DNA from: Haloplanus sp. XH21
GTDB lineage: Archaea > Halobacteriota > Halobacteria > Halobacteriales > Haloferacaceae
Assembly: GCF_023276355.1 (NCBI RefSeq)
Contig: NZ_JALLPL010000001.1
Coordinates: forward strand, 248,001 to 312,000
DNA: 64,000 nucleotides
Direction: 5' to 3'
The position numbers and the translations under genes are program-made. Positions 6,615 through 28,149 of the stretch are shown piece by piece (position 1 is the first letter of the stretch; every line of letters starts with the position of its first letter). Under the pieces are notes generated by a model. It saw nothing but the letters and a program-made list of their open reading frames with translations. It ran no database searches and was not told the DNA's origin.

Positions 6615-8921
6615 TCAGCTGAGCGGGTCAAGCATCCGGCAATGCAAATCGTGCGTCTCGACGAGATCGTTTCCAACCTCGTCCTTGGCAGTGAAGTAGA
6701 GGATTTGCCATCCATCATCAGCGAGCTCTCGAAGAACCTCGAATCCTTCCTGAAGCCGTGTACGGTCTGCTGGGAGGAAGGCGTCGTCCAGAAGGAAGAA
6801 CCCAGGTTCGGAGCTCAGTAACTGCTCTGCGAGCCCAACACGAGCTGAGAAATACAGCTGTTCGGTCGTCCCGTGGCTGAGTTGCTTAGGTGTGAGGACC
6901 TCCTGTCCGTCCCTGTGGACCTGCAGGATCCTCTCCTCAGCATCGTAGGTAACACCCGTGTATCGGTCGTCAGTAATCGCCTGGAACACGTCTGTAGCCC
7001 GGCTTTTAGTGCCAAAGAGGTCCGTGATCTTCTGTTCCTCTTCCGCCTCAATGCCGTCGAAGATATCGAGCGCTTCCCGGGCAATATCTGCGTCACGCTC
7101 GATCTGCTCTACAAACTGATTCAAGTCGTGGACGACGTCTTGAAGCCCTTCGATAGAGCGCGACGGCAACGATACGGATTCATCAAGGAATGGCTCAGCA
7201 GAGAGGGCCTGAATCCGCTCGTCAAACTCACGCAGTCGTCGGTCGTGAGTCTCTAACTGCTCTGTGAGCTCATCGCGACGGTGGGTCAATTCCTCCTGTT
7301 GCTTGCGAAGTGTGGCTAGTCGATCCGGGTCGTACTCGTCCGCGTCCACGCTCTCATCGACGTCCGCGACCATCGCATCGAGTTCTGATTCCCAGTACTC
7401 GAGTTTCGCCTCTTGATCTGGTGTCGTCGTGCTCGGCGTGCCAAGAGCGTCTGTGAGACTTTGCGCTGCTTGGTCATGCTTCCGTTCGAGGGCCTCCTGT
7501 GCGGTCACACGCTCGCGGTACTCCTCGATGTCGGCGGCGTCTACCTCCTGAAGCAGCGTTTGTTTCTTCTCTTGGTTCGAGCGTCGCTCTTCCCGCTCTG
7601 TTTCGAGGTCGTCGTTACGCTCCTCGATGAGTTCGTCCTTGACCTCGATTTGTCGTTCGAGTTCGTCGCGACGATCTTGCAAGCCGGCTAACTCGTCGCG
7701 AAATGCTCTGATCGCTGGCCCGATTTCGTCGGTGGTAGTGACATCGAGCCCTGCGTCCTGCGCTTGCTGGAGAACCTGTTCCTGCTCTCGTTCCGCGGCC
7801 GCTACTGATCGATGTTGCAGACCATACCAGCCCGCAGCGATGGCGCCGATTACCGTAAGGAGAATGCCCGCAATCGTGCTCCCGACGATTGCTGCGACCC
7901 CGCCCAGTCCGAGCCCAACGAGTGCAGTGTACTTCGCGAAACGCATCCCCCGGGATGCCCCGACCGCCTCACCGTGGGACTCCCTGAATGACGCAAGCGC
8001 TTGTTCAACTTCATCAATATCGTCGGCCCGTGCCTCCAGCGGTGCCAGCTCTGCTTCGACGGAGTCTTTCTCGGTCTTGAGCTGTGTCCGCTCCTCACGT
8101 AGCGATGAACGCTTGTTTTCGAGGTCCTCAATCTCGTCCTCGGCTGCAACGATCTCGCGGTTGAGCTGTTCTAACTCTTTGAGGGTCGATTGGGACACCT
8201 CATCGTCGAGCTGCTCGATTGCCTCTCTATACGTGGTCAGCCGTTCCGTAAGTATCGCGTGGGTGTCCCACGTTTCGGCGGCCTCCTGTGTCTCAAGCTC
8301 GTCTTCACACCGCTGGAGTTCAGTTGTGACGGCGACGACCTCTCGCTCGACTGCTGCGATATCGTTCGCTTCGGCGTCAGCGATATACTCCTGGATGTCC
8401 ACGGCGAGGTCGTCTGCCTGATCACGCACATCTGCTGCATTCGATCGGCTGCGGGCCGACGACAGCCCTCGGCCACTGACGCTGGTCAGTCGTCCGTGCT
8501 CAACGAGTCGAGACTGGATCGCGTCGATCTCGTTCGTGTGGAGGTCGCCGATCTGCTGGGTGACCGAATCGTAGAACTCGTGTTCATCGCGAAGTTGCAG
8601 GTCACTATCCCGGATGACGAAGATGTTTCGAAGATGTTGTGGCGAGAGGTCCACCAGATCGCTGAGAACCGATCCGTCGCCGAGTTTCTGTTCGGTGCCG
8701 CCGGTCTCGACGACAACATGGCCGCTCGGGGATTCGTCAACTCGGGAGACGTGCGGGATCGCGCTTTCAATATCCGGCTCGAGTAATTTGAGTACGGCTT
8801 CTAATAGCAGTGTCTTCCCGGACTCATTCGGCCCATAGAAGACTTCGAAGTTGTCTCCACACTCGTGAGTGAAGCGGGGAAGTGGCCCGTAGCGATCGAT
8901 TTGGATGTCGGTCAGCTTCAT
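6615..8921 (-). CDS. SbcC/Rad50-type (YhaN-like) coiled-coil ATPase
   Basis: 768 aa. Walker A is GPNESGKT at residues 30-37. Long coiled coils follow (about 190-320 and 370-640). A signature-type LSHGTTEQLYFSARVGL lies near 680 and a Walker B FFLLDDAF near 707. Between the coiled coils, around residues 325-368, lie two hydrophobic glycine/alanine-rich stretches that look like a membrane hairpin. A hydrophobic insert in place of a zinc hook is a feature of YhaN-type ATPases rather than classical Rad50/SbcC. The start overlaps the stop of the SbcD-like gene by 4 nt (ATGA), so they form an operon and probably a complex that processes DNA ends. A defence role is inferred from the neighbourhood. 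Confidence 0.87.
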   Translation of the reverse strand: MKLTDIQIDRYGPLPRFTHECGDNFEVFYGPNESGKTLLLEAVLKLLEPDIESAIPHVSRVDESPSGHVVVETGGTEQKLGDGSVLSDLVDLSPQHLRNIFVIRDSDLQLRDEHEFYDSVTQQIGDLHTNEIDAIQSRLVEHGRLTSVSGRGLSSARSRSNAADVRDQADDLAVDIQEYIADAEANDIAAVEREVVAVTTELQRCEDELETQEAAETWDTHAILTERLTTYREAIEQLDDEVSQSTLKELEQLNREIVAAEDEIEDLENKRSSLREERTQLKTEKDSVEAELAPLEARADDIDEVEQALASFRESHGEAVGASRGMRFAKYTALVGLGLGGVAAIVGSTIAGILLTVIGAIAAGWYGLQHRSVAAAEREQEQVLQQAQDAGLDVTTTDEIGPAIRAFRDELAGLQDRRDELERQIEVKDELIEERNDDLETEREERRSNQEKKQTLLQEVDAADIEEYRERVTAQEALERKHDQAAQSLTDALGTPSTTTPDQEAKLEYWESELDAMVADVDESVDADEYDPDRLATLRKQQEELTHRRDELTEQLETHDRRLREFDERIQALSAEPFLDESVSLPSRSIEGLQDVVHDLNQFVEQIERDADIAREALDIFDGIEAEEEQKITDLFGTKSRATDVFQAITDDRYTGVTYDAEERILQVHRDGQEVLTPKQLSHGTTEQLYFSARVGLAEQLLSSEPGFFLLDDAFLPADRTRLQEGFEVLRELADDGWQILYFTAKDEVGNDLVETHDLHCRMLDPLS

Positions 8922-10003
8922 GTGAGCTTCCCCTCCGCGGCCAGATCGGCGAAGATCGCGAGCATTTCTTCCCAGACGTCGTCCTGGAAGCCCTCCACAT
9001 CGTAATCGTCGCGCTCCTCGACAGCGTGGAGTTGCTCACGCTCCTCGAGCCGCTGTTGAAACGTCTCGAACAGGGGATGTGACAGGATATGTTCGACTGT
9101 TCGGGTGCTGTTCTCGACGTAGATGTCGCCACTCACATCAGAGAGGGCTGCACTGAACGCCGTTTCATCCATCTCAGTGAATCCGTCGACGCTGATCTTC
9201 GGTTCGACGTGCCGGTTGTCCCAGGTGGTTACTTGCGATTGGATTTCTTCGAGGACACGCTCCTCGTCCCCGGGAGTGACCCGGAGATCGAGCGTATCAT
9301 AGTGGAACGAGTCGAGGGGCTGGAGCTGGACGTCCTGGGCTGCTTCGGTGTCGATGAGGACACTCGTCCGTCGACCTATCTCTTTCCGTGTTACCGACGC
9401 TGGAGTGCCGGGATAGACGAACGTTCCTCCATTCGAGAGTTCAGTTCGGTGCTGTGAGTGGTAGTGCCCCGCGAGATAGTAGTCGAAATCCAATTCGGCA
9501 AGTTCCTCTTTGGTGATGGGGAAATACCGTTGTTCGCCCTCGTCTCCGACGCCACCCTGAACAGGAGCTTCCAAGCTACAGTGTAACAGAAGGGCTTCTG
9601 TCCCGTCGAATGGTTCTCTATCACGCAATCCAACGAGGAGCTCGTCAGTCGCCTGTGGTGTATACGGGAGCGCGGTAACTCGAGTGTCGTGGATGACGAA
9701 CTGGTCGAAAGGCGTCTCGGTTGCGGGCGTGAACGATTCGCCGAAGAAGAGGTTACTGCGGAACGCATCGGCGTCGTGATTACCTGGAATCGTCAGGATT
9801 GGATACGAACGGTCAGAAAATAATTCTCGGAGGGATTCCCGTAGCTGCTCCGCTGCGACATCACTATCGAAGAGATCGCCACCGATCGTAACGAGATCGA
9901 CATCACTGGTATCCGCTTGTGAAAGGACAGTTTCTAACGCCGCCTGGCGTTCATCAGCGTCTGGTGTGAGATGAATATCTGCAGTATGTAGGATTCGTAC
10001 CAT
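8918..10003 (-). CDS. SbcD/Mre11-type metallophosphoesterase
   Basis: 361 aa. The calcineurin-like phosphoesterase metal motifs are complete: D9-x-H11 in HTADIH, GGDLFD (Asp43), PGNHD (75-77), a later LLLHCS and the GHYHSQH motif. The family supplies the Mn-dependent nuclease of SbcCD/Mre11-Rad50 complexes. It precedes and overlaps the SbcC-like gene, and the two products should work together on DNA ends or hairpins. At 361 aa with a short C-terminal capping region it is closer in size to SbcD/YhaO than to the longer archaeal Mre11. This suggests an accessory rather than the housekeeping copy, though the housekeeping Mre11-Rad50 genes are not in the window. Confidence 0.9.
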   Translation of the reverse strand: MVRILHTADIHLTPDADERQAALETVLSQADTSDVDLVTIGGDLFDSDVAAEQLRESLRELFSDRSYPILTIPGNHDADAFRSNLFFGESFTPATETPFDQFVIHDTRVTALPYTPQATDELLVGLRDREPFDGTEALLLHCSLEAPVQGGVGDEGEQRYFPITKEELAELDFDYYLAGHYHSQHRTELSNGGTFVYPGTPASVTRKEIGRRTSVLIDTEAAQDVQLQPLDSFHYDTLDLRVTPGDEERVLEEIQSQVTTWDNRHVEPKISVDGFTEMDETAFSAALSDVSGDIYVENSTRTVEHILSHPLFETFQQRLEEREQLHAVEERDDYDVEGFQDDVWEEMLAIFADLAAEGKLT

Positions 10004-12718: not shown

Positions 12719-12804
12719 GGGCACGTTATCCAGAATTTGATGGATTAGGGTGGGAAAGGGAGACTCAGCCGAAGGACTATCTGTACTTGGCATAGAGGGA
12801 CATT

Positions 12805-14226: not shown

Positions 14227-14295
14227 ATAATACTAACCGGCTAAATTGAACGGCTGAACCTTGAAAATCAGTAACTATTGGTGAACACGCTGTGA

Positions 14296-14918: not shown

Positions 14919-14926
14919 TCGTTTCT

Positions 14927-15587
14927 CACTCCGCTCCTCGTGGGTACGACAAACCTACAGAGATCATAGGCACCGTCGAGAGCGTCCCTGTTGGAATCAC
15001 CTCGATTAGAGAGAGCCGACGGTGAAATAGTCCGTATGCCCTCTCAAACCGACCATAACTTCGATTAATGTGGACGTCTAACGTAGACATACCCGTGTCC
15101 GCCTTCCAGGGGAGGTAGCCGGGGTTCAAATCCCTGGAGGGGAATGGGTTTGACTCCCAGTCGGTAGGGAAGGCGCTATTGAAACTGGGCAAGGTGGCGG
15201 TCACGGGCGGCGTCGAGGAGGTGTTCATCTACATTACGAAACAGATGATGTACAAGATTGCGTCGAGGCTGAATGAGAAGTACAGCATCAAATCAAAAGC
15301 GGCCACGTGGGGCAAGAAGGTCGTTAATCGGGCGAAGGCCCGTTCCCCCCACACTCCCCTCTCCCTGCCGGCAACCCGGCTAGTGGATACACTGCAGCTT
15401 TCGGATTCGTCCCCCGAACGAACCCTCTTCTAAAGTATCAACAGAGGTCCCGAGAGGTGTATGACACGGCTGTAAGCGAGGTTGTGGCTGCGCGCACAGC
15501 GACCGCAGGGAGCGAGCACGGAGCGGTGGGTGGGGTGGAGGGGCGTCCACGGGCGGCGGTCGCCACTAAAACGGGGGAACGACCCGC
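14927..15587. other. Mostly non-coding gap with an orphan reading frame and T-arm-like hairpins
   Basis: No convincing gene. On the plus strand a frame without ATG runs from 15119 to 15433; its middle (EEVFIYITKQMMYKIASRL, then KKVVNRAKAR) has plausible protein composition and could be a decayed gene fragment, starting at best from TTG at 15179. Inside 15,115-15,165 are two successive stretches resembling tRNA T-arms (CCGGGGTTCAAATCCCTGG, then TGGGTTTGACTCCCA), but no acceptor or anticodon arm accompanies them. 15,434-15,587 holds GC-rich sequence downstream of the TFB gene with nothing recognisable. Confidence 0.35.
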
Positions 15588-16667
15588 TCAGCGCAGGGTG
15601 TCCCGCTCGTCCCCGAGGCCGACACCCGGGTCGTCGGTGCCGTGTTCGGCTTTGTAGGCATCGACGAGCTCGCGACTGTACCGCGCGATCCGATTTCGGG
15701 ACGTCGGCACGATCGTGCTCGCCGCCGCGGCGACCTGCCCCTGGGTGAGGTGCTTGCGCGAGAGCAGCCGATCCGCCGCGTACAGCGCCGACGCCGCGAC
15801 GGTGCGTCGTGGCGTCCCCGGTCCAACCGGCACCTGGTCGCCGAGTTGCATCAGGTGTTGGGCCAGCCGCCACGTCCGCACCGCCCGCGCCCCGGAAATC
15901 GTGTCTTCCTCAAGTGCGTCGACCACCGTCATCACGGCGTCCCTCCGGATGACCGGTGCATCGAACCCGCATTCACACCGGATCTTCCGGGCGGCAGCGC
16001 ACACCCGCTCGTGGGGCGCCTTGGTGTGCGTCGCGACCGCGATATCGATCTCGTTTCGGTCGATCGATGAGGCCCGCACAGCCAGCAAGACGGCGCCGCC
16101 GGCGAGTGCCTCCCAGGCCATCCGCCCGCCGGGGAGCCGTGCTTCCGAGGCACTTTGGAGGTACCGTGCTGCCGTCTTAACGACGTGGTCGGGTAGGTCC
16201 AGGTTGCCGCCGATCATCTCGATGTCGCGCAGCCCCTCGTTGAGCCGCTTGGTCCGCTTGCGCTTCTTGCAGAACTGGTAGCGCTTGTGCCACTTCCGGA
16301 GACGCTGGAACTTCTCCCACTGCTCGTTGCTGAGGGGATTGCCGTGGCCATCGGTGGACTTCCCGATCTTCGTGTGGAGGCCCTTGTCCGTCCGGAGCGG
16401 GTCCACGGTTTCGATGCTCTGGTCGGCGTCACCGACCATTCCGAGGTCGTTCAGCGTCGGGCTCAGATCTACCCATTGGTCAGCGACGATCAGCCCGCAA
16501 ACCGTACAGAACGACTCCTCGTCTTCGGTGATCACCTGGCCTTCGCACTCCGGACATGTCGACCGCGCCGACGGTTCGTGCTCGACCTGAAACGTGCGAC
16601 TGCGCTGCTCGGTAGTTGACGTCTGTCCGTCCGAAACCAGTAGTTCGCGAGCGTTGTAACTCGACAT
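15588..16667 (-). CDS. tfb: Transcription initiation factor IIB (TFB), divergent
   Basis: 359 aa. The N-terminal zinc ribbon has Cys38/Cys41 and Cys54/Cys57. The helical linker (GLHTKIGKSTDGHGNPLS) and two cyclin-like repeats follow. The segment after the ribbon, which normally reads ID-GPEWR-F and enters the polymerase cleft (B-reader), is replaced here by a longer VDLSPTLNDLGMVGDADQS-type sequence. This is therefore probably a specialised TFB. Haloarchaea usually carry several TFB genes, used in different TBP pairings. It has a structured 5' leader almost identical in layout to that of the RPA-like gene at 42.7 kb. Confidence 0.93.
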   Translation of the reverse strand: MSSYNARELLVSDGQTSTTEQRSRTFQVEHEPSARSTCPECEGQVITEDEESFCTVCGLIVADQWVDLSPTLNDLGMVGDADQSIETVDPLRTDKGLHTKIGKSTDGHGNPLSNEQWEKFQRLRKWHKRYQFCKKRKRTKRLNEGLRDIEMIGGNLDLPDHVVKTAARYLQSASEARLPGGRMAWEALAGGAVLLAVRASSIDRNEIDIAVATHTKAPHERVCAAARKIRCECGFDAPVIRRDAVMTVVDALEEDTISGARAVRTWRLAQHLMQLGDQVPVGPGTPRRTVAASALYAADRLLSRKHLTQGQVAAAASTIVPTSRNRIARYSRELVDAYKAEHGTDDPGVGLGDERDTLR

Positions 16668-16681
16668 CGGTTGGTTAGCAC

Positions 16682-16729
16682 CCGAAGGCGCTCACCAGAG
16701 CACGACACCGCGATGTCTCAGTATCGCGG
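16682..16729 (-). promoter_or_regulatory. 5' leader hairpin of the TFB gene
   Basis: Just before the TFB start (on the minus strand) lies a stem of 7 bp (CCGCGAT/ATCGCGG at 16708-16714 and 16723-16729, loop 8 nt), then about 12 nt, then the 14-mer seen on the plus strand as CCGAAGGCGCTCAC (16682-16695), then 14 nt to the ATG. The same arrangement with the same 14-mer and stem occurs at 42717-42761 before the RPA-like gene. It is probably a transcribed leader. Confidence 0.5.
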
Positions 16730-16948
16730 ATCTCTGACATCCAGAATGGACAGGACTGACTACACGCTCTCGTGCGCTTTCGCGAGCGCCTTCACCCCTC
16801 GCGGGCGCGAGCAACAACTCTCGGCGGCGCTTCTATTGGGTATCCTGTGTATGAGGCAAAGGAGGACTACCGCAGAAGTCTGGATCAGGAGTCGCTCTCG
16901 CCCATTCGCAGGTGGTAACCGACGATCAGGAGGGCGTCTTCTCCGCGA

Positions 16949-16990
16949 TTAACCAACACCCGCGCGATGGACGCTGCGAGTGTTGGTTAA
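16949..16990. repeat. 11-bp perfect inverted repeat upstream of Argonaute
   Basis: Arms TTAACCAACAC (16949-16959) and GTGTTGGTTAA (16980-16990), spacer 20 nt, ending 50 nt before the Argonaute ATG. Position suggests an operator; a hairpin in the leader is also possible. The rest of 16,730-17,040 shows no gene. Confidence 0.6.
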
Positions 16991-17040
16991 CACATTTCAT
17001 CGAGTCGAACACCCACCCCCGAAACGCCTAACTTAGCCCC

Positions 17041-19260
17041 ATGACACTGATTACGAAAATGGGGCAGTTCCTCAGCTCATTCCAGATAGCGGTTCCCGAG
17101 ATTCCTGCTGAGATCTACGAGATATCTGCAAAACTCCCGGACAACCCTTACTCGGAACTAGCTCACTTTGAGAATATTCTGGCGGACAGGTCATGGGGAG
17201 AGGCCCACCGCATTCGAGGGGACGATGGAGAATGGTGTATCGCAGTCTTTGGGCACGAACACGAACCTGAGGAGGTCGATGCCGACGGGATAACCCTTAG
17301 CTTGGAGGATCAGACCACCCTGAATCCGGAGAATCCACGGCATAGAGGTGCTCTTGGCCAAGCTCTTCGAGATGGATTCGGATCATTCCTGACGTCAGTC
17401 CTCGACTGCTGGGAGTACAACGAGCGGGGGAACTTCTACGAGGCCGAGCCAATTCGGACCGTTCGAGGCGAAGAAGCGACCTTCGAGATGTTCCGCGGGG
17501 TCCGGACTAGCATCGATTACCGATCCGGTTCCGGGTTCATGCTCAGCCTCGACCCCACCCGGAAATTCGTCGACGAACGGACGCTCGCGGATCGCCTCGA
17601 AGCACAGGGCGAATCCGCGGTCATCGACCAGTTTGCGGACGGACGGCGCTACTTCTTCTTCAACCGTCCTGAACCACAACCAGTACAACTGCACTCAGTT
17701 TCCGACGCAACCGTCACTGACGAAACGATGAACATCGATGGAGAACCAACCTCGGTGCTCTCGTTCGTCGAAGACAACTACGGGAGTGACTGGGCCGGGA
17801 AAATCGATCCAACCGAACCGGTTGTGAAGTACAAGTATTCGGGCGGAGACCGAACCTACGACGCTGCACCGTCACTCCTTCGTCTGATCCCCAATCAAGA
17901 GGAGGTCACGACCCAGGCATCGACGCTCGATGCGTACGAACGCTGGGAGGAAGTCCAGGAGTGGATGCGCCCGGTTCATTATATCCGCCTCGGAGACCAC
18001 GAAGCCGATGTCGCTGACGAACCGATCCAAGAGGGCGTAGATACATTCGATTTCCCGCCGCTCACCTTCGGGGACGATACGGTATTGGAGGTCGGTTCAT
18101 CCGACTTGACAAGCTCAGGCGACGTGACCAGAGATGTCTGGGAGTATCGAACCCTCGACTATCTCGAAGAGTTCGGACCGAAGCGAAAGCCGATGGACGA
18201 GCCATGGGTCGCCGTGCTCCATACAGATTCGACCCGGCAAACGGCATTCGACGCGTTCGACGACGTCCGGGAGTACGTGAAGCGGTACGCTGATCTTGAT
18301 CTGAAAGAGCAGCCTGGCGGTGTAAGCTTCGAGAGTAGAGCTGAATACGACCAGTGGAAAGAAGAATTTGCTCCAAAGGTTACGGGCGCGTTCGCGTACC
18401 TGACCGGTGATGGCCAAACGGAATACTACGACGTGATCAACGCAGTGGCCGGGAAGCCGGTCCAACACATTCGCCACGATAACTATCAACAGGAGCGCAA
18501 CCGGGATGAGAGTTATTCGCTTAGGAATACAGCGACAGATCTAGCGTCGAAACTCGGTGTGCGACCGTTCCTGTTAGAGGGAGGGCTGTCCGCAGATGTC
18601 GTCATCGGCCTGAGTGTAACCGGGGACCAAAGCACCACTGCCTGCTCGGTTACTGTGTCTGGAGAATCGGGGGACGTAATCGACTGGACGAAACAAGCAC
18701 ACGGACGAGGAGATAAGACGGTAGACAATTTCGACCACGCCGAGAAGCTAATTGGCGACGGGATCGTCGAAGCAATCGATCATAACGAGGGGGCCGTCGA
18801 CTCACTGGTGGTCCACCGGAATGGAACCTACGGAAACGAGGAAATTGCGGGGATCCAATCAGCCGTCGAGAGCCTGAAGGAAGAAGGATACATCGACGAC
18901 GACTTCAGCTGGAGTGCAGTCGAGCTACGGGATAGTACGTCGTATCGGATATTTTCCGATGACACTGACTGTGAGTGCCAAACCGGAGCGTACGCTGAGG
19001 TGGATGGATCCACGATGGTCCTGGCTCCCTCTGGAGGCGAATACACGTATCAGGGAACGCCACGGACATTCCGGATCCAAGAAAAAGCAGGAACGAGTGA
19101 CATCGATATCGCGGAAATCGGCCAAGACGTCTTCGACCTCTCGTTCTTGGTCTGGTGGTCGCCTGGCTCGAAGATCAGCGATCCGATCACGACCAGATAT
19201 CCTGCGGAGATGCACAAGTTGTTCGAGAGGTGCCCCCAGCTCAAATTCCTGCCCAGCTAA
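17041..19260 (+). CDS. ago: Prokaryotic Argonaute (long form, probably catalytically inactive)
   Basis: 739 aa, the right size for a long pAgo. Residues about 150-300 look like the linker/PAZ region (SGSGFMLSLDPTRKFVDERTL, YDAAPSLLRLIPNQEE). The MID/PIWI half runs from about 385: NTATDLASKLGVRPFLLEGG (496-515), the first PIWI strand VIGLSVTGDQ (521-530), the second catalytic strand VVHRNGTYGNEE (590-601), and the C-terminal SDPITTRYPAEMHKLFERC (713-731). The Asp of the usual IGxDV is Ser525 and the Asp of HRDG is Asn594, so two of the DEDX catalytic positions are missing. That points to guide-directed binding rather than slicing, as in long-B pAgos, which act with partner effectors. Its 3' end overlaps a convergent gene by 4 nt. 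Alternatives to Argonaute are unlikely given the ordered motifs. Confidence 0.85.
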   Translation: MTLITKMGQFLSSFQIAVPEIPAEIYEISAKLPDNPYSELAHFENILADRSWGEAHRIRGDDGEWCIAVFGHEHEPEEVDADGITLSLEDQTTLNPENPRHRGALGQALRDGFGSFLTSVLDCWEYNERGNFYEAEPIRTVRGEEATFEMFRGVRTSIDYRSGSGFMLSLDPTRKFVDERTLADRLEAQGESAVIDQFADGRRYFFFNRPEPQPVQLHSVSDATVTDETMNIDGEPTSVLSFVEDNYGSDWAGKIDPTEPVVKYKYSGGDRTYDAAPSLLRLIPNQEEVTTQASTLDAYERWEEVQEWMRPVHYIRLGDHEADVADEPIQEGVDTFDFPPLTFGDDTVLEVGSSDLTSSGDVTRDVWEYRTLDYLEEFGPKRKPMDEPWVAVLHTDSTRQTAFDAFDDVREYVKRYADLDLKEQPGGVSFESRAEYDQWKEEFAPKVTGAFAYLTGDGQTEYYDVINAVAGKPVQHIRHDNYQQERNRDESYSLRNTATDLASKLGVRPFLLEGGLSADVVIGLSVTGDQSTTACSVTVSGESGDVIDWTKQAHGRGDKTVDNFDHAEKLIGDGIVEAIDHNEGAVDSLVVHRNGTYGNEEIAGIQSAVESLKEEGYIDDDFSWSAVELRDSTSYRIFSDDTDCECQTGAYAEVDGSTMVLAPSGGEYTYQGTPRTFRIQEKAGTSDIDIAEIGQDVFDLSFLVWWSPGSKISDPITTRYPAEMHKLFERCPQLKFLPS

Positions 19261-20330
19261 ATCTCGTCCAACCAATACCGATTTGCCTTCAGTCGATAAT
19301 CGAACTCGGGTACAGTAGAAGGATTGGCCCCATTCTGGATGTGATCACAGAGCTCATCGAGCTGGTGGTTGACACTCGCCGCATCTGAAATGACTGCCTC
19401 GACCAATTCGTCATCAGCCCATTCGTCGTAAAAGGGGCGCTTTGATTCCTCATAGCACTGTAGGTGTTGAGAATATTCCGCTCGGACACCCTCAAGCGGG
19501 TCCTGGAGTTCCTCCGGGAGATACTCGTCTGCGAGGTCAGTAATGACCTCCACTCGTAATGCGTCTGGGGGATGAAGAAATTCGTCCTCAACACCGACGT
19601 CGCGTTGAATGAAGTACGGATTCTGGGAGAGGAGATGGTGGAGTTGGGCACACACGTAGCTTGGACCGAACGCAAAGAAGCCAGCGACGTCGCAAAAGAG
19701 CTCGTCGTACCAGTGAATCCAGTTCCCATGAAAATCTCGTTCAGTTCTATCAGAATCCATCTGCCGCCGAAGTTCACCGAACCGTTGGCTGAACTCGCGA
19801 GATCGGGAAGAACGCTGGTCCAACAATGCGTGCGCCACTTCGTGTGCCAGGATCGGCGTCGTCGGGACGATATCTCTTCCACGAGGGACGAATATTACGT
19901 AGAACTCATCGTCAAGTAGTGGTAAGAGCGCGTAGTTCTCGCGGATGACGGGGAAGCAGGTCACCGAGAGCCCGATCGCATCGGTGAGTTCCTCGCAGAT
20001 CTCTTCGACATGTTGAATCCGGTCCGACCAACGCTCCCGATGATGGGTGAACAAGTCGAGATGAGTGAGTACGAGCTCCAGATCCGAGATGTCGGCCTCT
20101 GCGGAGATGACCTTCGAAAGGTACCGCTGATACAGTGCTTCGTTATCCGGATTGGCCTCGACGTCCGATCGGCGGCTGTCGATTGCTTCGAACGTCCCTC
20201 GGATATCGGTGAAATACTCGTCAAACGCAGTTCGAATCGGGAGGTCAGAAAAGCGCTCGGCCTCCTCCTGAAGATGTTCAAACCGCTCCGCTAGATCATC
20301 CTCGCGGTGATCAATGATCCGTGTGGGCAA
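19257..20330 (-). CDS. HEXXH zinc-metallopeptidase-like protein
   Basis: 357 aa. The core has AHEVAHALL with the zinc motif at residues 163-167 and a downstream YDELFCDVAG (Glu210/Asp214) suitable for the third ligand, as in gluzincin-type peptidases. The N-terminal 120 residues are helical with many acidic and arginine residues. Its start overlaps the end of the 148-aa gene by 20 nt, and its 3' end meets the Argonaute gene head-on with a 4-nt overlap. It could be a protease effector or a structural zinc protein. Substrate unknown. The tight packing around Argonaute and the AddAB-like genes makes a shared system worth considering. Confidence 0.7.
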   Translation of the reverse strand: MPTRIIDHREDDLAERFEHLQEEAERFSDLPIRTAFDEYFTDIRGTFEAIDSRRSDVEANPDNEALYQRYLSKVISAEADISDLELVLTHLDLFTHHRERWSDRIQHVEEICEELTDAIGLSVTCFPVIRENYALLPLLDDEFYVIFVPRGRDIVPTTPILAHEVAHALLDQRSSRSREFSQRFGELRRQMDSDRTERDFHGNWIHWYDELFCDVAGFFAFGPSYVCAQLHHLLSQNPYFIQRDVGVEDEFLHPPDALRVEVITDLADEYLPEELQDPLEGVRAEYSQHLQCYEESKRPFYDEWADDELVEAVISDAASVNHQLDELCDHIQNGANPSTVPEFDYRLKANRYWLDEI

Positions 20331-20757
20331 CGTAATCCCGTAGTTGTTCTGCGTCCTGGTCGGTCGTTCTCGTCGCCAACTCCTCGACTAACTCCAACAC
20401 CTCTACGACCTCGTCGAGGTCACCGCGATACTCCAGATCATCCTTCGTCCGTCCTAAAAGGTCCAAATACCGGTTTAGACGGTTGATCGCGTACTTGTCG
20501 ATATCGCCGTAGTGTTCTCGTACCCGGCGGGCCAAGGTGTACGCGTAGTTGTCAGCCTCCTCCGGGTGCTCCAACGCATCACGGAGCGTTCGGAGAACAG
20601 CTTTCCCGTCTTCGAGGTTGTCACGGAGTTCGTCGGCGCGCGTTCTCGTGACGGACCCGTTGCTCTGGAGAAGGGCAAGCGCGTACAGGGCATCATCAGC
20701 CTGATCACTGATGTGGCGCCCCGTCTCGTAGCGCCGTTTGGATCTCCAGAGACTCAT
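20311..20757 (-). CDS. Hypothetical helical protein partnered with the metallopeptidase
   Basis: 148 aa, almost entirely helical and charged (ADELRDNLEDGKAVLRTLRDAL..., VVEVLELVEELATR). No motif recognised. It overlaps the downstream metallopeptidase gene, so both should be translated together, like a two-gene toxin-antitoxin or regulator-protease cassette. A TAATATTATAAC stretch lies just before the ATG, nearer than a normal TATA element, so either the true start is further in or this is an operator. The 220 nt upstream separate it from the AddA-like gene; no gene is visible there. Confidence 0.6.
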   Translation of the reverse strand: MSLWRSKRRYETGRHISDQADDALYALALLQSNGSVTRTRADELRDNLEDGKAVLRTLRDALEHPEEADNYAYTLARRVREHYGDIDKYAINRLNRYLDLLGRTKDDLEYRGDLDEVVEVLELVEELATRTTDQDAEQLRDYVAHTDH

Positions 20758-20977
20758 TCCGTTATAATATTAGAAGGGGTGCTAAATCAGTTTTGCCCAG
20801 TGTCCTCAGACGGCCAAACGGGCCCATTTCGACCTATTCACCCGCCTTAGATCCAATTTCTCGGAGTCGTTCGAACTCTATCGAGTTGTGGCTCGCAGCC
20901 TTCCAGTGAGTCATGGGTTCCAGACCGCGTTAAATCCTCCAACTCCGTGGCTATCTCTGTAGATGAGGTCGTGTTAC

Positions 20978-23900
20978 TCACAGATGAGTCGAGAGTCGCG
21001 AACAGACGGTAGCGTCAAGCTCAGTTTCCAGATCTTCGAGCTCCTCAGGACTCCACAGGAATGATCGTTGGGCCCCAGCCTCGGTAAAGAGCAGCGTTGC
21101 CTCGACGTCCATCTGCGGATTAGACTGGTGAAGCGCCACAGCGTACGCCTTCATCTGCCACTCGTAGTAGTCTGACTTTGCTTCGATCTGATGTGGACGT
21201 GAGATGTCGTTGGTCTTGTAGTCGACGACGTGGTATCCGCCATCCGTTTTCGAGATGTGGTCGACGTATCCGTACAGTTGTCCCGAATCCAGCATCGCTC
21301 GGACCATTTTCTCGTCTACGGTGCCACCCTCATCGAGGGAGTTCAGATACTCCGATGCCGTAGCCACGTGACGCGATATATCTGAAAGGTCGGTTTGCGT
21401 CACGTTGTCGGAGGAAACTTCGTGTTGAGTCGCGACCTGTTCGGTCAATCGCAGGAGGGTGGACTCGTCGTCGGGATTAACACGCAACTCGACGGCCTTG
21501 TGTACGACGTCGCCGAAAACGTTCCGAGGAAGACCCGTAGACTCACTGCCTGAAGAACTGGTATCTGAACCCGAATCGTTCTCTGGGGGTTCGTAAGATA
21601 CGTACCGTCCAGTGTGGTCGACGACGATGTCCCCGGGCGCCCCATCCTCGATGAGCGAACCCAAGTACGACGCCGCAATATCGTACTCCGGTTCAACCTC
21701 GTACGCATCGACGTCAGGTTCCAGGGAGATGGGTTCAGCGGCATCGGTTGAGGCGGACTCTGCGCTCATTCTGGGAAACCGCACTGTTACCGGGGTTTCT
21801 CTCTCCTCCGGAACCGCTGTCGATCCGGCCACAGCGAGTTCTTCGAGAACGTCGTTGGAGAGTATCTCTGGTGCAACGATATCGTACCAGTTCGACGGTT
21901 CGCCTCGATCACCGGTATCCAGTGATTCGACCGACTCGTCGTCGCTTCCAGCGGTGCCGATCAGGAAGAGGTGGTCCCTGGCGCGCGTCGCAGCGACGTA
22001 GAGGATCCGTTTCTCCTCGGCAACGGCTTCGCGTTTCCTGGAGAAGTTGAGTCGTCGTTTGAGGATCGTGTCTTGCTGCTCGAAGACGTCAACGGTTCCT
22101 GGTGCACGGATGCCAAGCAATGGCTGCCGGTCGTCTGTCAGCGGGTCCTCGATGATTTCGAACTCAGCGATGTTCTCGCCATAGCCAGGTCGAAGGTTGA
22201 AGTCCGTCGAGAGGCCCGGGACGAATACAGCCGGGAACTCCTGACCCTTCGCGTCGTGCACGGTCATGATCCTGACGCCATCGGCATCCTCAGGTACTGC
22301 CGCTTCGCCCTCCCGGCTCGAGAGCTCGACCTCACGATCGATTCGGTCGACGACTTCTGGGAGGGTCTGTAGTCCGTCTTCGCCCCACTCTCGAAGGCGA
22401 TCGCGGAACTTCTCGACGTTTGCGATAGCCTGCTGGCCGCGCTCGTCGAGTGCGAGACTCGCAAGATACCCGGTGTCTTCGATTATCCGGCCGAGTAACG
22501 CGTCCCAGGTTTCCACTAGTGGCGTCGGCCCGCTACAGCCAGCGAGTCGGCGCCAGGTTTCGATACGCTCTCGAGCAGTGGTCAGTCGGTCGTGGTCAGT
22601 TCGCTGGAGCGCGCGCCAAAGTTCACCATCACCGATGTCGTCGCGCTCGATACTATCCCAGAGGCCGACCACGTCCGTGTCTTCGAAGCCGAATAGAGGT
22701 GAGCGCAAGACGCCGAACAGTGCGAGATCATCGATTGGATCCTGAAGTACTGCGAGGAGATTCCTGATGGCCGTGATCTCCGTGCTCTCGTAGAACCCGA
22801 TCCCCGAAGCCACCGTGTAGGGAACGTTGAGCGAGGCGAGAGCTCGTTCGTACGATTCGAGGTGAGTCCGTTTCCGCAGTAAAATAGCCACGTCCTTCGG
22901 TTCCAGCTCGACAGGTTCCTCGACGGGGTCGCCATCCTCGTAGCCAGTAACTTCGTAGCGCTCAGGTGCGTCATCGAGGAAAGCTGCAACCTCGGCAGCT
23001 AATGCTCGTGCATCGAGGGTGGCGCCATCTTCGGGGAGTGCACGAAGCTGGTGATCTTCAGTGAGGGCTTCCTCCCGCACTGGCCGCTCTTCCGGTACGA
23101 GGACGAAGGTCGCACCCAGGCCGATCTCGGCCTCGTCAGTTCTATCGGGGGCCAGACGTTGTGGATCTGGCTCGAAGGAAGTATCGTCCCCACGGATCCC
23201 CGGCGGCGCATCCTGATGGGTTTGAGGGACCTGGCCGAAGAGGTCATCGAACAGCTCGTTTATCGGTTCGAGAACACCCGGGAGTGACCGGAAGTTACGC
23301 GACAGATCTCTCCCTTCCCCCACCTCATAGGTTTCTTCGAGCGGTGGAACCGACGCCTGCTGGTTTGCCTGGGCGAGTCTCTCGCGTTCTACCGCATACT
23401 GTGTAACGTCAGCGCCTCGGAAGCGGAAGATGCTCTGTTTTTCGTCGCCGACCACGAAGACGTTCAGCCCGTCGTACTCGGCGTCCAGGGAGGTCAACAA
23501 CTCGACCAGTTCCCATTGTCTCGGGTCCGTGTCCTGAACCTCGTCGAGCATGACGTGGTCGAATGATTCTCGAACGTCTGCCCGAACTGTCGGAGACGAT
23601 CGTAGTAGATCGATACAACCGTCGATCAGGTCGGCGAAGTCGAGGACACGCTCACGTCGCTTGCGATCTTCGTATTCGTCGTGAAGATCACGGAAGAGCG
23701 ATGCGAGACTAATGTAGTACGGGGCGGCGTTGCGCTCGACGGCAAGCCGTCCTGGAATGGCCCATCGTTCGACAGGGAGTGCCTCCACTAGCGCGGACGT
23801 TGCTTCGTCGTATCGTTCGGCGTTCTCGTCGTCCCAGTCGTCATGTCCGCCGTAACACCAACTGTCCCAGCTACCATAGTACGGCGTTCGGTCCGAGGTG

Positions 23901-24733
23901 AGAGCTTCACAGAGAGCAGCTGCAGCGTCATGGGTAGCGACGTCATTCAGAGCCGCGCCGATGATATCGTGCGTCTCGACGGCTGTTGCAACGTTCTGGG
24001 CGATACTGATCCGATTTCCGCCCGCGCTCTCTTCGTCCGCCACCTGCCGGATGTCCCGGAGTGCCTCCTCGACGTCTGGACGGTCAAGTAGCGTCCGTGC
24101 TTCGCCAACGTCGATAGGTGAGTAACGCTCGCGGACGAATTCGACGTAGTCCGACGGCTCTTGATCCGCCCACTCGTCCGCCCATTCCCGAGCGTGTTGA
24201 TGTTCCTCCAGTAAATCCCCGAGAAGGTCTTCCAGCCTGTCTCGGTAGTAGATATGAGTCAACTCCTCGATTCGTTCGTCGTCCAGGTGATCCTCAACGA
24301 ACGACTCCACGGTCTCGAGTTGGTGTCCCCGGGCCGCCGTCTCTTCGATGACGTCGAAGCCGACCGGGACATCGGCTTCGAGGGCATGCTCATGGAGGAG
24401 TCGCGAACAGAAGCCGTGAATCGTGTGGATGTACGCTTCCGGGAGTGCATCGTGGTACTCACGCCACCGTTCGTACCCATCGCCATCTGTTTCGTCCAAT
24501 CGATCGCTAACGGACTCTCGTACCCGCTCCTTGAGTTCTGCCGCACCGCTTTCAGTGAAGGTGATTGCGGCGGTCGAATGCGGGTCGGCGTCGGTGGTTT
24601 CGAGAAGCTTCAGATACCGCATCGCAAAGGTCGTCGTCTTGCCACTGCCGGCCCCGGCTGTGACAGCATAGTTGCGGTCGTGGGCCAGAGCCGCCAGTTT
24701 CTGTGGGTCTTCCAAGTGCCTGAACTCCACCAT
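20978..24733 (-). CDS. AddA-like UvrD-family helicase with C-terminal PD-(D/E)XK nuclease
   Basis: 1,251 aa. Superfamily-1A motifs: Walker A TAGAGSGKTTTFAMRY (25-40), ITFTESGAAELKERV, motif II LDEVQDT near 401, VGDEKQSIFRFRGAD, later IMTVHDAKGQEFPAVF and LYVAATRARDHLFL. Near residue 1,168 the RecB-type nuclease motif appears (YGYVDHISKT...VVDYKTND, then a YEWQMKAYAVAL helix). This is the order of AddA in AddAB. The ATG shares a base with the stop of the AddB-like gene upstream. Such complexes unwind and degrade duplex ends. RecBCD/AddAB are bacterial recombination enzymes and not standard in haloarchaea, so an accessory or defence role is likely. Confidence 0.9.
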   Translation of the reverse strand: MVEFRHLEDPQKLAALAHDRNYAVTAGAGSGKTTTFAMRYLKLLETTDADPHSTAAITFTESGAAELKERVRESVSDRLDETDGDGYERWREYHDALPEAYIHTIHGFCSRLLHEHALEADVPVGFDVIEETAARGHQLETVESFVEDHLDDERIEELTHIYYRDRLEDLLGDLLEEHQHAREWADEWADQEPSDYVEFVRERYSPIDVGEARTLLDRPDVEEALRDIRQVADEESAGGNRISIAQNVATAVETHDIIGAALNDVATHDAAAALCEALTSDRTPYYGSWDSWCYGGHDDWDDENAERYDEATSALVEALPVERWAIPGRLAVERNAAPYYISLASLFRDLHDEYEDRKRRERVLDFADLIDGCIDLLRSSPTVRADVRESFDHVMLDEVQDTDPRQWELVELLTSLDAEYDGLNVFVVGDEKQSIFRFRGADVTQYAVERERLAQANQQASVPPLEETYEVGEGRDLSRNFRSLPGVLEPINELFDDLFGQVPQTHQDAPPGIRGDDTSFEPDPQRLAPDRTDEAEIGLGATFVLVPEERPVREEALTEDHQLRALPEDGATLDARALAAEVAAFLDDAPERYEVTGYEDGDPVEEPVELEPKDVAILLRKRTHLESYERALASLNVPYTVASGIGFYESTEITAIRNLLAVLQDPIDDLALFGVLRSPLFGFEDTDVVGLWDSIERDDIGDGELWRALQRTDHDRLTTARERIETWRRLAGCSGPTPLVETWDALLGRIIEDTGYLASLALDERGQQAIANVEKFRDRLREWGEDGLQTLPEVVDRIDREVELSSREGEAAVPEDADGVRIMTVHDAKGQEFPAVFVPGLSTDFNLRPGYGENIAEFEIIEDPLTDDRQPLLGIRAPGTVDVFEQQDTILKRRLNFSRKREAVAEEKRILYVAATRARDHLFLIGTAGSDDESVESLDTGDRGEPSNWYDIVAPEILSNDVLEELAVAGSTAVPEERETPVTVRFPRMSAESASTDAAEPISLEPDVDAYEVEPEYDIAASYLGSLIEDGAPGDIVVDHTGRYVSYEPPENDSGSDTSSSGSESTGLPRNVFGDVVHKAVELRVNPDDESTLLRLTEQVATQHEVSSDNVTQTDLSDISRHVATASEYLNSLDEGGTVDEKMVRAMLDSGQLYGYVDHISKTDGGYHVVDYKTNDISRPHQIEAKSDYYEWQMKAYAVALHQSNPQMDVEATLLFTEAGAQRSFLWSPEELEDLETELDATVCSRLSTHL

Positions 24734-27700
24734 TAGTCATCCCCCATTGGAGCGTATGCGTCGAGCTCCAGTTCTACGTCCCGAGCCCGCTCCGAAACGT
24801 AGTGGCGGGTTTCGTCCAACCCTGCGATGGTGTCTTGCTGATGGTGGTGACGAACGTCGCAAGTATCCCTGAAGGAGCAATCCTCACAGTTCGCGAGGTC
24901 CTCGGAAAGCAGCGTCGGGTGGAAGGCTCCGTTTTCGATCCCGGTCGCGATCTTTCCAAGACGGGCAGGAGTTACATCGCGAACGAGACGGGTGAACTCT
25001 CTGCGTGAGTCGAACGGCAGCCGCCAAGGCTGCGACGGCGGCGGAAGCATTGGGGTGCCAGTCTCGTCATCGACGGCCTCGCGGGAGGAAACCTTTGCAG
25101 TGGTGGCGCCGATGTCCTCGGGCGATTTGAGCTTGTAGTACGAGCCACCGAGCATCTCGTGAGAAATCCCAGTTTCCTCTTCCAAGACGGACTCAAGGAC
25201 GAGCCCATACATTGGCAACTGGAGCTTCGTTCCGAGAGTGACATCGTTCCGGGACGGCGTGCTACCGGTCTTGTAGTCACGGACGTGGATTCCCCGCGAG
25301 TCCCCATCGACGACGTCGACCCGATCCGCGATCCCGTGAACCTCCACCTGGCCGTGTGGGGTGTCTACGCTAACGGGCCCGTCCTGGAGTAATTCGACGT
25401 CTTCGTAATCGAGATTTATCGCGGCCTCGAAGTAGGTCGCTCGGGCTTGAGCCGATTCGTGGGCGGCGAGCTCCTCGTCGAGAAAGCGGCCGAAAAGACC
25501 TCTCACGTCATCGCTACCGTGCGTTCCATAGTACGGGTTGTCCACGGGCGATCCGAGTCCGGCGAGTAATCGAGTGACTGTTCGTTGGGCAAACAGCGTT
25601 TCGACGTCGCCGAGAGTATCAAGTCGGTCGAGGGCTGCGTGGAGTAGCGCATCCTCGAGGCGGTCCTCGTCGAACCGGTTCAGGTCGACGGGGACGTGGG
25701 TGTCCTCACGGAGTTCGCGGTAAAATTCCGCCAGCACGTCGTGTACGTAGGTTCCCCGGTCGGCACGACTGATGTCGTTTTCTTCGCCGTAATCCTCTTC
25801 GAAGCCGAGAACGCGCTTTGCCAGGAAAACGAACGGGCACCTCGCGTAATCTTCCAGCGCACTGGGGCTATACGGACCCCGGCGCCAAGCTGGGAACACG
25901 TCGTCGAGGATCTCCTCGATCTGTGCATCGTGGGCGGTCAGTTCAGGCCGAGAACGTCGCCAGGCCGTATTCAATCCCTGAATAGCGAAGGCTTGAGCAT
26001 CATCTGAGAGGGCCTCGGCGGTGTTCAGGCCATCAACAGCACGGGTCGGGGAGTCGAACTGTTGATCTCCAGCCCACGTTGCATATTCTCGTTGGACGTC
26101 TTCAGCGGAGACGATGGGTGCTCGGTCAGACGGCTCTTCGGATTCCTCCGGTGCTTGGACGGATTCCTGGAGTTCCGATACCACCGGTGCGGGGACGTGT
26201 TCAGTACCGTCGACGGTGTGGCGGGGCGTCGAGAGGACTACGTTTCCGGACCCGGTCAACAGCGTCCCCAAGATGTACCGTGCTCGTCGGCCGGTATGGG
26301 CCCGGCTGAACTCCTCGTCGGCATCGTTGATTGCGCCAAAGAACGCCATAGTGTCCTGTTCGCTGGGGAAGTAGCCTGACGTCAATCCCAAGACGAATAA
26401 GTGATCGAACGACGTCATTTCAGCTTCGGCCAGCGGAAGGACACGGACGTATCCATCTCGTTGGTCTGGCCCACCCACGAGCTCCGCTCGGAGTGCCCGA
26501 CGGACGCGGCCCGGTTGGTCGCCATCAGGAAGATGAGGGGCGATCGTTTCGAGGGACGAGAGCACAGTCTCTATGGACGACCACGCTGATTTTTCGTAAG
26601 CAGGCCGGTGTGACCCGGTTGGTTCGTCCGGCGAACCATATCCTTCGACGGCATCTTCGATGCCGAGACGCGAAAGCATCTCTCGAAGCGACCTCGCGTA
26701 CTCCGCGAGGGAATCGTCAGCTGGGGTGACCGCGTCGTTGAGACGGACGATACCCTCTGCTGTCTCAGTGGCTCCAGCCTCTTCGAGTTCCTCGAGAATT
26801 TCCGGAAGCGAGTCCGTAGAGGCATTGTCTCGGGCAGAGTTGAGAGATGGCGCGTCGATGTCGAAGTCACTCAACGAAACAAAGACGTTCGAGCAAAGGG
26901 CTCCGAGTGAGCTGCCCTTCGGATCGTCGTCAGCGAGGTCGAGGAGCGTTTCGAGAGCACCCCCGACGAGCGTCTGTTCGATACCGATGTCGTTCGTGAA
27001 CGTGAACGGGACATCGTACCCGGTGAGCGTTTCGCTCAAGATGCCCCGGTAGGTCGACCGGTCGGTAACAACGATGCCGATATCGGCAGGCTTGACGCTA
27101 TCACGCGCAAGCAGCTCCCGAACGCGTCGAGCGGTCGTCCGCACCTCCTCTCGTTCCGTCGATGGCTCAAGCCATTCTATCCCCACGTCGGTTGGGTAGT
27201 ACGTTGATTCAGTGTGAGTGGGGGTTTGGAGGCTTCTGACGGCGTCGATTCGCTCGTGGTCAGTAGACGTTGGGGTACTGTAATCGAGTGTAAAGCCGAT
27301 CGAGAGAAACACCTGGAGTGCGCGTTTTACACCGAGATCGATCCCAGTACCGCTCATCGAATCGTGTACAAGCGGGACGACCGCTACAGTAGGACGATTC
27401 CTCGCGATTCGGGCGATTGCCTCTCGCTCAGCGGGCGCAAGTCGAGTCAACCCGTCCAAAATTACAGCGTCGACGGAAGCCGGGAGTGTGTCTACGAGGA
27501 GTTCCTGGTCAAGTAACTCCAGGTATTGTTCCGGGGCTTCTGCCGTCCACGACGGGTGGATTTCGTCACGTAGCTCTCGATACGCCGAATAGAGATCGGA
27601 GACGGTCGTTGCCTGCTCGGCGAGTGCTCCGTTAAGGGTGTCAGGTTCCTCGTCGCGGAACGATCCATAGAGCTCGGGATCGATCCTCTCATCGCCCATC

Positions 27701-28149
27701 GTTCCCGCGCAATGTAGTGCGTGTTCGATTGCATCTGAAGAGGAGTACCCGGCGTACTCAAGTAACGAGAACAACCCCTGCACCTGATCAACGAGGTCGT
27801 TCGACGGCTGTTGAACGTTGGAAAACGGGCCACTATCCGCCTCGAATCGTTCGATTGTTGCTTCAACGAGACGAAGCCGATCAGGCTTCGCCAGGGAACT
27901 CCTGGCAACTGAGGCACTCGCCCGTTCGTACAGCGTACCGATGTGCTGGTCTACCGTTGTTGCGGTGAAACGAACAGGATCTTCCTCTTCTCGCCATTGG
28001 CGTGAAAGATGGTCCGCTCGTTCGCGACTTTGTGTCAAACAAAGAATGGTGTTGGGATCATCCGCAGCCGTATCGGAAGCCCAGCTGAATGCTCGCTTTG
28101 TCGCTTCGGCCGGATCGGGTCCTGAAATCAGCGAGAAAGGCTCGGTCAC
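24733..28149 (-). CDS. AddB-like helicase-nuclease with probable 4Fe-4S nuclease domain
   Basis: 1,138 aa from a GTG start at 28149. The N-terminal helicase fold is degenerate: the P-loop position reads SGPDPAEATKRAF, without the GKT lysine. The nuclease motifs near residue 950 (VHGIADRVDVVD..., VRDYKTGS) are intact. One cysteine before the nuclease (DYARCPFVFLAKR, about 770) and three after it (NCEDCSFRDTC, about 1,090) match the iron-sulphur staple of AddB and Cas4-type nucleases. It is encoded immediately before the AddA-like subunit with a 1-nt overlap, so the two probably form one complex. The pairing is well supported; the biological role is inferred. Confidence 0.87.
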   Translation of the reverse strand: MTEPFSLISGPDPAEATKRAFSWASDTAADDPNTILCLTQSRERADHLSRQWREEEDPVRFTATTVDQHIGTLYERASASVARSSLAKPDRLRLVEATIERFEADSGPFSNVQQPSNDLVDQVQGLFSLLEYAGYSSSDAIEHALHCAGTMGDERIDPELYGSFRDEEPDTLNGALAEQATTVSDLYSAYRELRDEIHPSWTAEAPEQYLELLDQELLVDTLPASVDAVILDGLTRLAPAEREAIARIARNRPTVAVVPLVHDSMSGTGIDLGVKRALQVFLSIGFTLDYSTPTSTDHERIDAVRSLQTPTHTESTYYPTDVGIEWLEPSTEREEVRTTARRVRELLARDSVKPADIGIVVTDRSTYRGILSETLTGYDVPFTFTNDIGIEQTLVGGALETLLDLADDDPKGSSLGALCSNVFVSLSDFDIDAPSLNSARDNASTDSLPEILEELEEAGATETAEGIVRLNDAVTPADDSLAEYARSLREMLSRLGIEDAVEGYGSPDEPTGSHRPAYEKSAWSSIETVLSSLETIAPHLPDGDQPGRVRRALRAELVGGPDQRDGYVRVLPLAEAEMTSFDHLFVLGLTSGYFPSEQDTMAFFGAINDADEEFSRAHTGRRARYILGTLLTGSGNVVLSTPRHTVDGTEHVPAPVVSELQESVQAPEESEEPSDRAPIVSAEDVQREYATWAGDQQFDSPTRAVDGLNTAEALSDDAQAFAIQGLNTAWRRSRPELTAHDAQIEEILDDVFPAWRRGPYSPSALEDYARCPFVFLAKRVLGFEEDYGEENDISRADRGTYVHDVLAEFYRELREDTHVPVDLNRFDEDRLEDALLHAALDRLDTLGDVETLFAQRTVTRLLAGLGSPVDNPYYGTHGSDDVRGLFGRFLDEELAAHESAQARATYFEAAINLDYEDVELLQDGPVSVDTPHGQVEVHGIADRVDVVDGDSRGIHVRDYKTGSTPSRNDVTLGTKLQLPMYGLVLESVLEEETGISHEMLGGSYYKLKSPEDIGATTAKVSSREAVDDETGTPMLPPPSQPWRLPFDSRREFTRLVRDVTPARLGKIATGIENGAFHPTLLSEDLANCEDCSFRDTCDVRHHHQQDTIAGLDETRHYVSERARDVELELDAYAPMGDD

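Follow-up and report, generated by a model that had tools for sequence, protein, structure and literature searches.

A predicted metallopeptidase co-inherited with a predicted non-slicing Argonaute of haloarchaea

What does an Argonaute contribute when the residues with which it would slice are gone, and with which partner would it act? The question is raised by a gene in a 64,000-nucleotide stretch of the haloarchaeon Haloplanus sp. XH21 (contig NZ_JALLPL010000001.1, positions 248,001 to 312,000), hereafter called the window, which encodes a long prokaryotic Argonaute (pAgo; the window Ago). A sequence-only reading of this DNA had described the protein as a non-slicing Argonaute of the long-B kind and, finding no SIR2 or TIR gene beside it, had left its effector open. 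The open reading frame (ORF) is present where it was claimed to be and translates into 739 amino acids, and no SIR2 or TIR partner was recognised among the neighbours scanned. The idea that the Ago stands without a partner was, however, wrong in substance, as its gene is adjoined by the genes of a predicted metallopeptidase and of a small protein (Table 1), and in haloarchaea the three are co-inherited as one module.

Constant neighbours of the Argonaute gene

Full-length matches to the window Ago were present in 10 of 391 haloarchaeal genomes, and the same 10 genomes gave the strong matches to the metallopeptidase, the two genes being adjacent in every one of them. The Ago search had matched 22 genomes, 12 of which were dropped as weak NgAgo-like matches, a fragment or frames of about 1390 amino acids (L024 and L025 read like methylases), and the metallopeptidase sequence had matched 12, two of which were dropped as weak. 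The latter two (G024:C2:306976-307263 and G338:C60:419541-419813; E 3e-4, residues 188-282) match the zincin core in genomes without the trio and are possibly remote zincins. The metallopeptidase profile matched 40 genomes, 10 at E < 1e-115 and the next best at 1.1e-6; the 30 genomes dropped (E 1.1e-6 or weaker) all matched within profile positions 3-124, the coiled N-terminus. The PADLOC profile PprPIWI matched 83 genomes, and a strong metallopeptidase match was missing in the other 73. Among plasmid records, the six haloarchaeal ones with this Ago are the six with this metallopeptidase (the Halorientalis plasmid among them is the replicon of genome G058), and a further trio genome (G394) was found in another search. 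The distance correlation over 13 loci was r 0.974 for Ago and metallopeptidase and r 0.956 for Ago and small protein, values that fit a co-travelling unit but that shared descent alone would give too. The viral contigs and phages searched yielded no relative. It may be noted that plasmid unnamed1 of Halosimplex aquaticum carries two copies of the trio (L001 and L002), with the Ago frame broken in both and the metallopeptidase frame shortened in L002.

In the window the Ago and metallopeptidase genes overlap tail-to-tail by 4 bp (19257-19260), and the last 20 bp of the small-protein gene are shared with the start of the metallopeptidase gene. Tail-to-tail overlaps of 4-20 bp between Ago and metallopeptidase were seen in 12 of 14 haloarchaeal loci; in L031 the two genes are 1 bp apart, and in Natrinema alone they are separated by intervening genes, among them that of an IS5 transposase. 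BLAST did not find the small gene of L035, which was assigned from its position only.

The metallopeptidase is predicted from its motifs. H163, E164, H167, E210, C213, D214, H253, P254 and R259 are invariant in all 17 homologues compared (14 haloarchaeal and three bacterial), and the same residues are invariant among five of five bacterial homologues, so that the family has a conserved HExxH and a downstream candidate zinc ligand throughout; an HPPDALR motif is also present. Pfam M78 (IrrE/ImmA) gave weak matches in four of the 17 members (best E 0.023), short of significant family membership, while hhalign against one Nostoc ImmA/IrrE protein gave E 3.2e-6 around the HExxH. Because of this combination of a conserved HExxH and downstream Glu with distant M78 resemblance we call the protein a predicted, distantly M78-like zincin. 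Its AlphaFold2 (AF2) model, made from a two-row alignment, reached a mean predicted local distance difference test score (pLDDT) of 54.3, and less than 50 around the motif. When the profiles of the zincin and of the small protein were searched against the PDB, most matches were to coiled coils or designed helices; CapP stood in the weak list of the zincin profile (E 0.71), a lead at most.

A homologous predicted metallopeptidase adjoins pAgos of the DNA-guided RNA-targeting (D-R) kind in bacteria, and these pAgos appear catalytically intact. On five bacterial plasmids (Aphanizomenonaceae TIOX110, Runella, Rhizobium, Spirosoma and Emticicia) the genes of a pAgo, a small protein and a zincin are co-directional, instead of tail-to-tail as in the archaeal loci, and the archaeal and bacterial zincin profiles align with hhalign E 5.8e-16. 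All five Agos keep DEDD, and one of them (P0004) matched the PDB entries 8xih at 3e-114 and PliAgo (7r8f) at 7e-73. The Runella zincin as query retrieved seven plasmid records, all seven of which the Runella Ago also matches. A PD-(D/E)XK nuclease gene precedes the pAgo in all but Emticicia, where the ORF at that position gave no Pfam match; directly upstream stands a helix-turn-helix (HTH) gene in Runella and Rhizobium and a sigma-70 gene in Emticicia and Spirosoma, with neither in Aphanizomenonaceae. Genes for multiubiquitin, ThiF and DUF6527 proteins were also seen near the Ago-zincin genes of Runella and Spirosoma (L055, 10561-12740; L059, 406-2819). The records of the more distant Pontibacillus and Hydrogenophilus pAgos, from the same plasmid searches, gave no zincin match; two different pAgos are encoded on the Hydrogenophilus plasmid pTH1, and each has DEDD (L131, 3414-5705; L130, 1414-3681). 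On a Nostoc sp. CENA543 plasmid (L132, 478-4804) a PD-(D/E)XK nuclease and a pAgo stand beside a divergent pair of ImmA/IrrE metallopeptidase and HTH genes, possibly an independent pAgo-metallopeptidase association.

Table 1. Features of the window discussed in the text (positions in the window)
Feature	Position	Strand	Basis
Prokaryotic Argonaute, predicted catalytically dead, 739 aa, likely true start 17059	17041..19260	+	PprPIWI, tetrad alignment, dN/dS
S525, aligned to TtAgo D478	18613..18615	+	alignment
D558, aligned to TtAgo E512 (glutamate finger)	18712..18714	+	alignment
N594, aligned to TtAgo D546	18820..18822	+	alignment
A722, aligned to TtAgo D660	19204..19206	+	alignment
Predicted zinc metallopeptidase, zincin, distantly M78/IrrE-like, 357 aa, TTG start	19257..20330	-	invariant residues, hhalign
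HEVAH, predicted zinc-binding and catalytic motif of the metallopeptidase	19830..19844	-	
ELFCD, putative third zinc ligand E210 of the metallopeptidase	19689..19703	-	
Small protein, 148 aa, probably helical	20311..20757	-	found beside metallopeptidase
AddA-like UvrD helicase with C-terminal PDDEXK_1 nuclease, optional accessory	20978..24733	-	
AddB-like protein with PDDEXK_1 nuclease, optional accessory	24733..28149	-	
TFB-family transcription factor, divergent from the Ago gene	15588..16667	-	
Mre11/SbcD-like phosphoesterase, 7 kb from the window Ago	8918..10003	-	
Rad50/SbcC/SMC-like ATPase paired with the Mre11-like gene	6615..8921	-	

Catalytic tetrad and descent of the Argonaute

That the window protein is a prokaryotic Argonaute follows from homology over its C-terminal MID-PIWI half. 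PprPIWI matched residues 9-733 (E 1.8e-67), and phmmer against the PDB gave VbAgo as best match (5.2e-13) and 7r8f (1.3e-8), both in the MID-PIWI part, together with 8xih (1.2e-10), mostly in the N-terminal half; 7r8f is the structure of PliAgo (PMC9360449). Pfam (E up to 0.01) and NCBIfam gave no match. The real start is probably the second Met, since this is the start in most homologues. The AF2 model of the window Ago, built on a two-sequence alignment with few homologues, had a mean pLDDT of 32.9, and the PIWI fold therefore rests on the sequence profiles. A second PIWI-like gene was noticed in the same genome (G000:C1:973952-975352, a 764-aa open frame; PprPIWI E 2.7e-24).

The catalytic positions were read from a MAFFT alignment of 40 long pAgos at the columns of the TtAgo tetrad, which we take to be D478, E512, D546 and D660 and where the letters D, E, D and D were indeed found. 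The alignment comprised 13 members of the haloarchaeal family, the five bacterial zincin-associated Agos, TtAgo, the haloarchaeal NpAgo, five other named pAgos and 15 NgAgo-like frames; a near-copy (L036) and 15 of the 30 NgAgo-like frames were left out of it and of the tree. The sequence-only reading had taken the PIWI strands as VIGLSVTG and HRNG, with Ser525 and Asn594 replacing two catalytic Asp, and both points were borne out. Beyond them, D558 and A722 also differ, so that all four tetrad positions are changed in the window Ago, and the DEDX of a catalytically active long-A pAgo is not found intact. D558 is a conservative, still acidic change from Glu, at a position where the relatives have N, S, T, R or Q. 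The tetrad is missing in all 13 haloarchaeal members, while all four residues are kept in the 27 other aligned pAgos: the first position is S in 10 members, N in one (L040) and D in two (L033 and L035, which retain this Asp alone), the second is never E, the third is N or G, and the fourth is A, S, K, R or T. The description of the window protein as a non-slicing Argonaute is thus well supported by its alignment with TtAgo. The haloarchaeal family has Y, I/V, Q and K at the MID-pocket positions that correspond to TtAgo R418, K422, Q433 and K457.

In the MID-PIWI tree the 13 haloarchaeal Agos form one group (support 100/100) and the five bacterial zincin-associated Agos another (100/99), and the two groups lie on one side of a branch with support 95/83. 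Forcing the haloarchaeal group together with the NgAgo-like proteins was rejected (approximately unbiased test, p-AU 0.013), a test that was chosen after the tree had been seen. The simplest reading, which we hold provisionally, is that one ancestral Ago-zincin module gave rise to both groups and that slicing was lost in the archaeal line. The assignment to long-B, though still conceivable, is not supported, since the tree, which holds no long-B reference, puts the family beside the bacterial pAgos of the D-R kind. The window Ago has the inactive tetrad of a long-B Ago, and its adjoining genes are those of the metallopeptidase and the small protein, the AddA/AddB-like nuclease genes lying further along that strand. 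It groups with the D-R pAgos through the five bacterial relatives, with the moderate support given above and with PliAgo itself not in the tree, and it lacks their intact nuclease site and the PD-(D/E)XK gene before the pAgo, its place being taken by the divergent TFB gene. No PLD domain, the partner in APAP, was found among the nine neighbours scanned (8918-28149).

Accessory neighbours and possible modes of action

We inspected 15 haloarchaeal loci (the window, L027-L036, L038, L040, L041 and L134) for further neighbours. AddA and AddB homologues stand in six of them, the window included (in pieces in L040), a UvrD helicase with PDDEXK_1 partners in three more (L028, L033 and L035) and an SbcCD-like pair in two more (L027 and L029), and in the remaining four no helicase-nuclease or SbcCD-like pair was recognised among the ORFs scanned. 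The window itself has SbcCD-like genes too, as has L040 by annotation, and in L027, L029 and L040 they lie directly upstream of Ago on the same strand. AddB was within 8 kb of a pAgo in nine of the 26 genomes with AddB and a PprPIWI match, a raw count made up of three trio genomes and six with pAgos of non-zincin type (G385, G354, G074, G159, G100 and G124). A TFB gene lies near Ago in the window, G058 and G394 (of 11 genomes, among the matches listed), but with 12-27 TFIIB-repeat matches per genome this proximity is not clearly above chance, and TFB as a conserved partner is not shown. Other genes of the window encode a protein with a Schlafen AlbA_2 domain (12805-14226; located between Ago and the SbcCD-like pair), an anti-restriction-like protein that combines an ArdC N-terminal domain with an M78 peptidase domain (31475-32410) and a 1367-aa protein with Eco57I/MmeI-type methylase domains, probably of restriction-modification (928-5031).

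From these observations we infer, with what we judge to be an even chance of being right, a conserved system of Argonaute and protease in which Ago is the subunit that recognises the target. Ago would load short guides, which by its kinship with PliAgo and PnyAgo may be DNA guides against RNA targets and which might be made by the nearby helicase-nuclease pairs (AddAB-like, UvrD with PDDEXK, or SbcCD-like; near 11 of 15 loci); for CbAgo, the introduction of PMC9360449 links RecBCD and Chi sites to the guides. Pairing with the nucleic acid of an invader would change the complex rather than cut the target, and the metallopeptidase, restrained until then by the small protein or by Ago, would be released or activated, the small protein being an inhibitor or an adaptor. 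The protease may then cleave a host protein or a regulator, with the result that growth is arrested or transcription responds. Retention of the zincin beside intact as well as dead Agos suggests that it acts downstream of recognition and not of cutting. It is put forward as a tentative proposal, with a chance somewhat short of even, that the dedicated metallopeptidase is switched on when the pAgo, a dead one in archaea and an intact one in bacteria, recognises its target.

The Ago gene could instead be a decaying relic among unrelated genes of a defence island, as the change of all four catalytic positions and the two broken copies on the Halosimplex plasmid might suggest. Between the window Ago and the 90% identical copy of Natrinema caseinilyticum, however, the ratio of nonsynonymous to synonymous substitution rates (dN/dS) was 0.052 for 735 codons (0.035 for the MID-PIWI part alone), which points to purifying selection and because of which we reject decay; the same comparison gave 0.074 for the metallopeptidase and 0.060 for the small protein, and three other Ago pairs gave 0.08-0.11 (the pair of window and L027 is saturated and yields no ratio). 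The single, fully supported Ago clade and the co-occurrence with the zincin in 10 of 10 genomes speak against a relic as well, and we regard it as extremely improbable. It is also conceivable, though on balance unlikely, that the protease is a switch of expression and not the effector, sensing DNA damage or invading DNA and cleaving a repressor (XRE-type, sigma-associated or TFB-related) in the manner of ImmA/IrrE and CapP, and that the system thus turned on acts against invading plasmids through the dead Ago, which would either block them by binding or call in the AddAB-like nuclease to degrade them, much as DdmE is believed to recruit DdmD. The distant M78/IrrE resemblance of the zincin, including its alignment with the Nostoc protein, the weak match to CapP and the AddA/AddB homologues beside the dead Ago in six of 15 loci are consistent with such a switch, as are the Nostoc plasmid and the HTH or sigma-70 gene just upstream in four of five bacterial loci, an arrangement also described in PMC9360449. 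No constant regulator gene was seen in the haloarchaeal loci, however, the TFB genes do not stand out from chance, and AddAB is missing from many trio loci.

We consider it improbable that the dead Ago works mainly with its helicase-nuclease neighbours, its guided binding recruiting AddAB-like, UvrD with PDDEXK or SbcCD-like complexes against invader DNA while the zincin only regulates or matures components. AddAB-like or UvrD with PDDEXK_1 pairs in nine of 15 loci, with SbcCD-like genes in two more, and the AddB genes close to pAgos would fit such a role, but the type of pair varies, four loci have none among the ORFs scanned, no enzyme but the zincin is constant, and defence genes cluster anyway. 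AddAB as an obligate partner is rejected, since AddB is present in 87 of 391 genomes and in only three of the 10 trio genomes.

The proposal of a guide-directed protease has, in turn, several observations to contend with. The frequency of AddB just given means that AddAB is common without this Ago. The archaeal Ago gene runs towards the other two and therefore does not form one operon with them as in bacteria, and since the bacterial Ago is intact, the protease does not simply stand in for slicing. Profile comparison of the archaeal and bacterial small proteins gave E 0.076, short of showing homology, because of which we treat them as positional equivalents only. The K422 equivalent of the MID pocket is lost (Ile/Val) in all 13 haloarchaeal Agos, so the chemistry of the guide is not to be assumed. 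Furthermore, the branches of the tree are long and long-B references are absent from it, the weak M78 match leaves peptidase activity predicted from motifs, and the two-sequence AF2 models of the metallopeptidase (54.3) and of Ago (32.9) are of low confidence.

Comparison with known systems

The nearest relatives in the tree, the bacterial zincin-associated pAgos, match in their loci the operons described for the D-R pAgos PliAgo and PnyAgo (PMC9360449), in which a PD-(D/E)XK gene precedes the pAgo and an HTH or sigma-70 gene is present. PliAgo-type proteins are active nucleases, whereas the archaeal branch lacks the tetrad and has a different MID pocket, and in the window no stand-alone Cas4-like nuclease gene stands before Ago. 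The main text of PMC9360449 does not use the word protease, and its passages on these operons are silent on the genes of the metallopeptidase and the small protein; the present proposal is a candidate answer to the question of what the operons do. The long-B systems (PMC10620215) likewise combine a full-length dead Ago with a dedicated partner, but their effectors are SIR2, nuclease or membrane proteins, while here the constant partner is a predicted metallopeptidase. APAP (PMC11442185) likewise joins a haloarchaeal pAgo to an accessory enzyme, but with an intact DEDX and a PLD nuclease, unlike the window family. According to the same paper, DEDX is consistently present in the pAgos of haloarchaea, to which the present family, as aligned here, is an exception; as effectors of dead pAgos it names nucleases, NADases and transmembrane proteins.

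PD-(D/E)XK (Cas4-like) and UvrD-type neighbours of pAgo genes have been noted before (PMC2743648, PMC6299218), and hydrolases are mentioned in some long-pAgo operons (PMC6299218); the words protease and peptidase were not found in the main texts of these two papers, their supplementary tables aside. Among the open-licence papers covered by our literature search, in the portions available, we recognised none that describes a metallopeptidase as partner of a long pAgo. The nearest case is a pPIWI-RE protein fused to a zincin (PMC3702460), likewise a PIWI protein with a zincin-like metallopeptidase but of a different PIWI family, and its authors considered the fusion rare and possibly an artefact of annotation. 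If our proposal is true, a protease effector class for Argonautes would be common to Archaea and Bacteria and would have been overlooked in the D-R pAgo operons, and the natural loss of slicing within one module would make the contribution of Ago besides cutting directly testable.

In DdmDE, a dead pAgo works with a helicase-nuclease, while the constant partner in the module described here is the metallopeptidase. A parallel in working is Craspase, the type III-E gRAMP with its TPR-CHAT protease, in which guide-directed recognition is coupled to a protease; some of these systems have a sigma factor nearby, and their proteins are not known to be related to Ago and zincin. As Craspase does in CRISPR, the conserved metallopeptidase would, if the proposal holds, add proteolysis to the effectors of dead pAgos.

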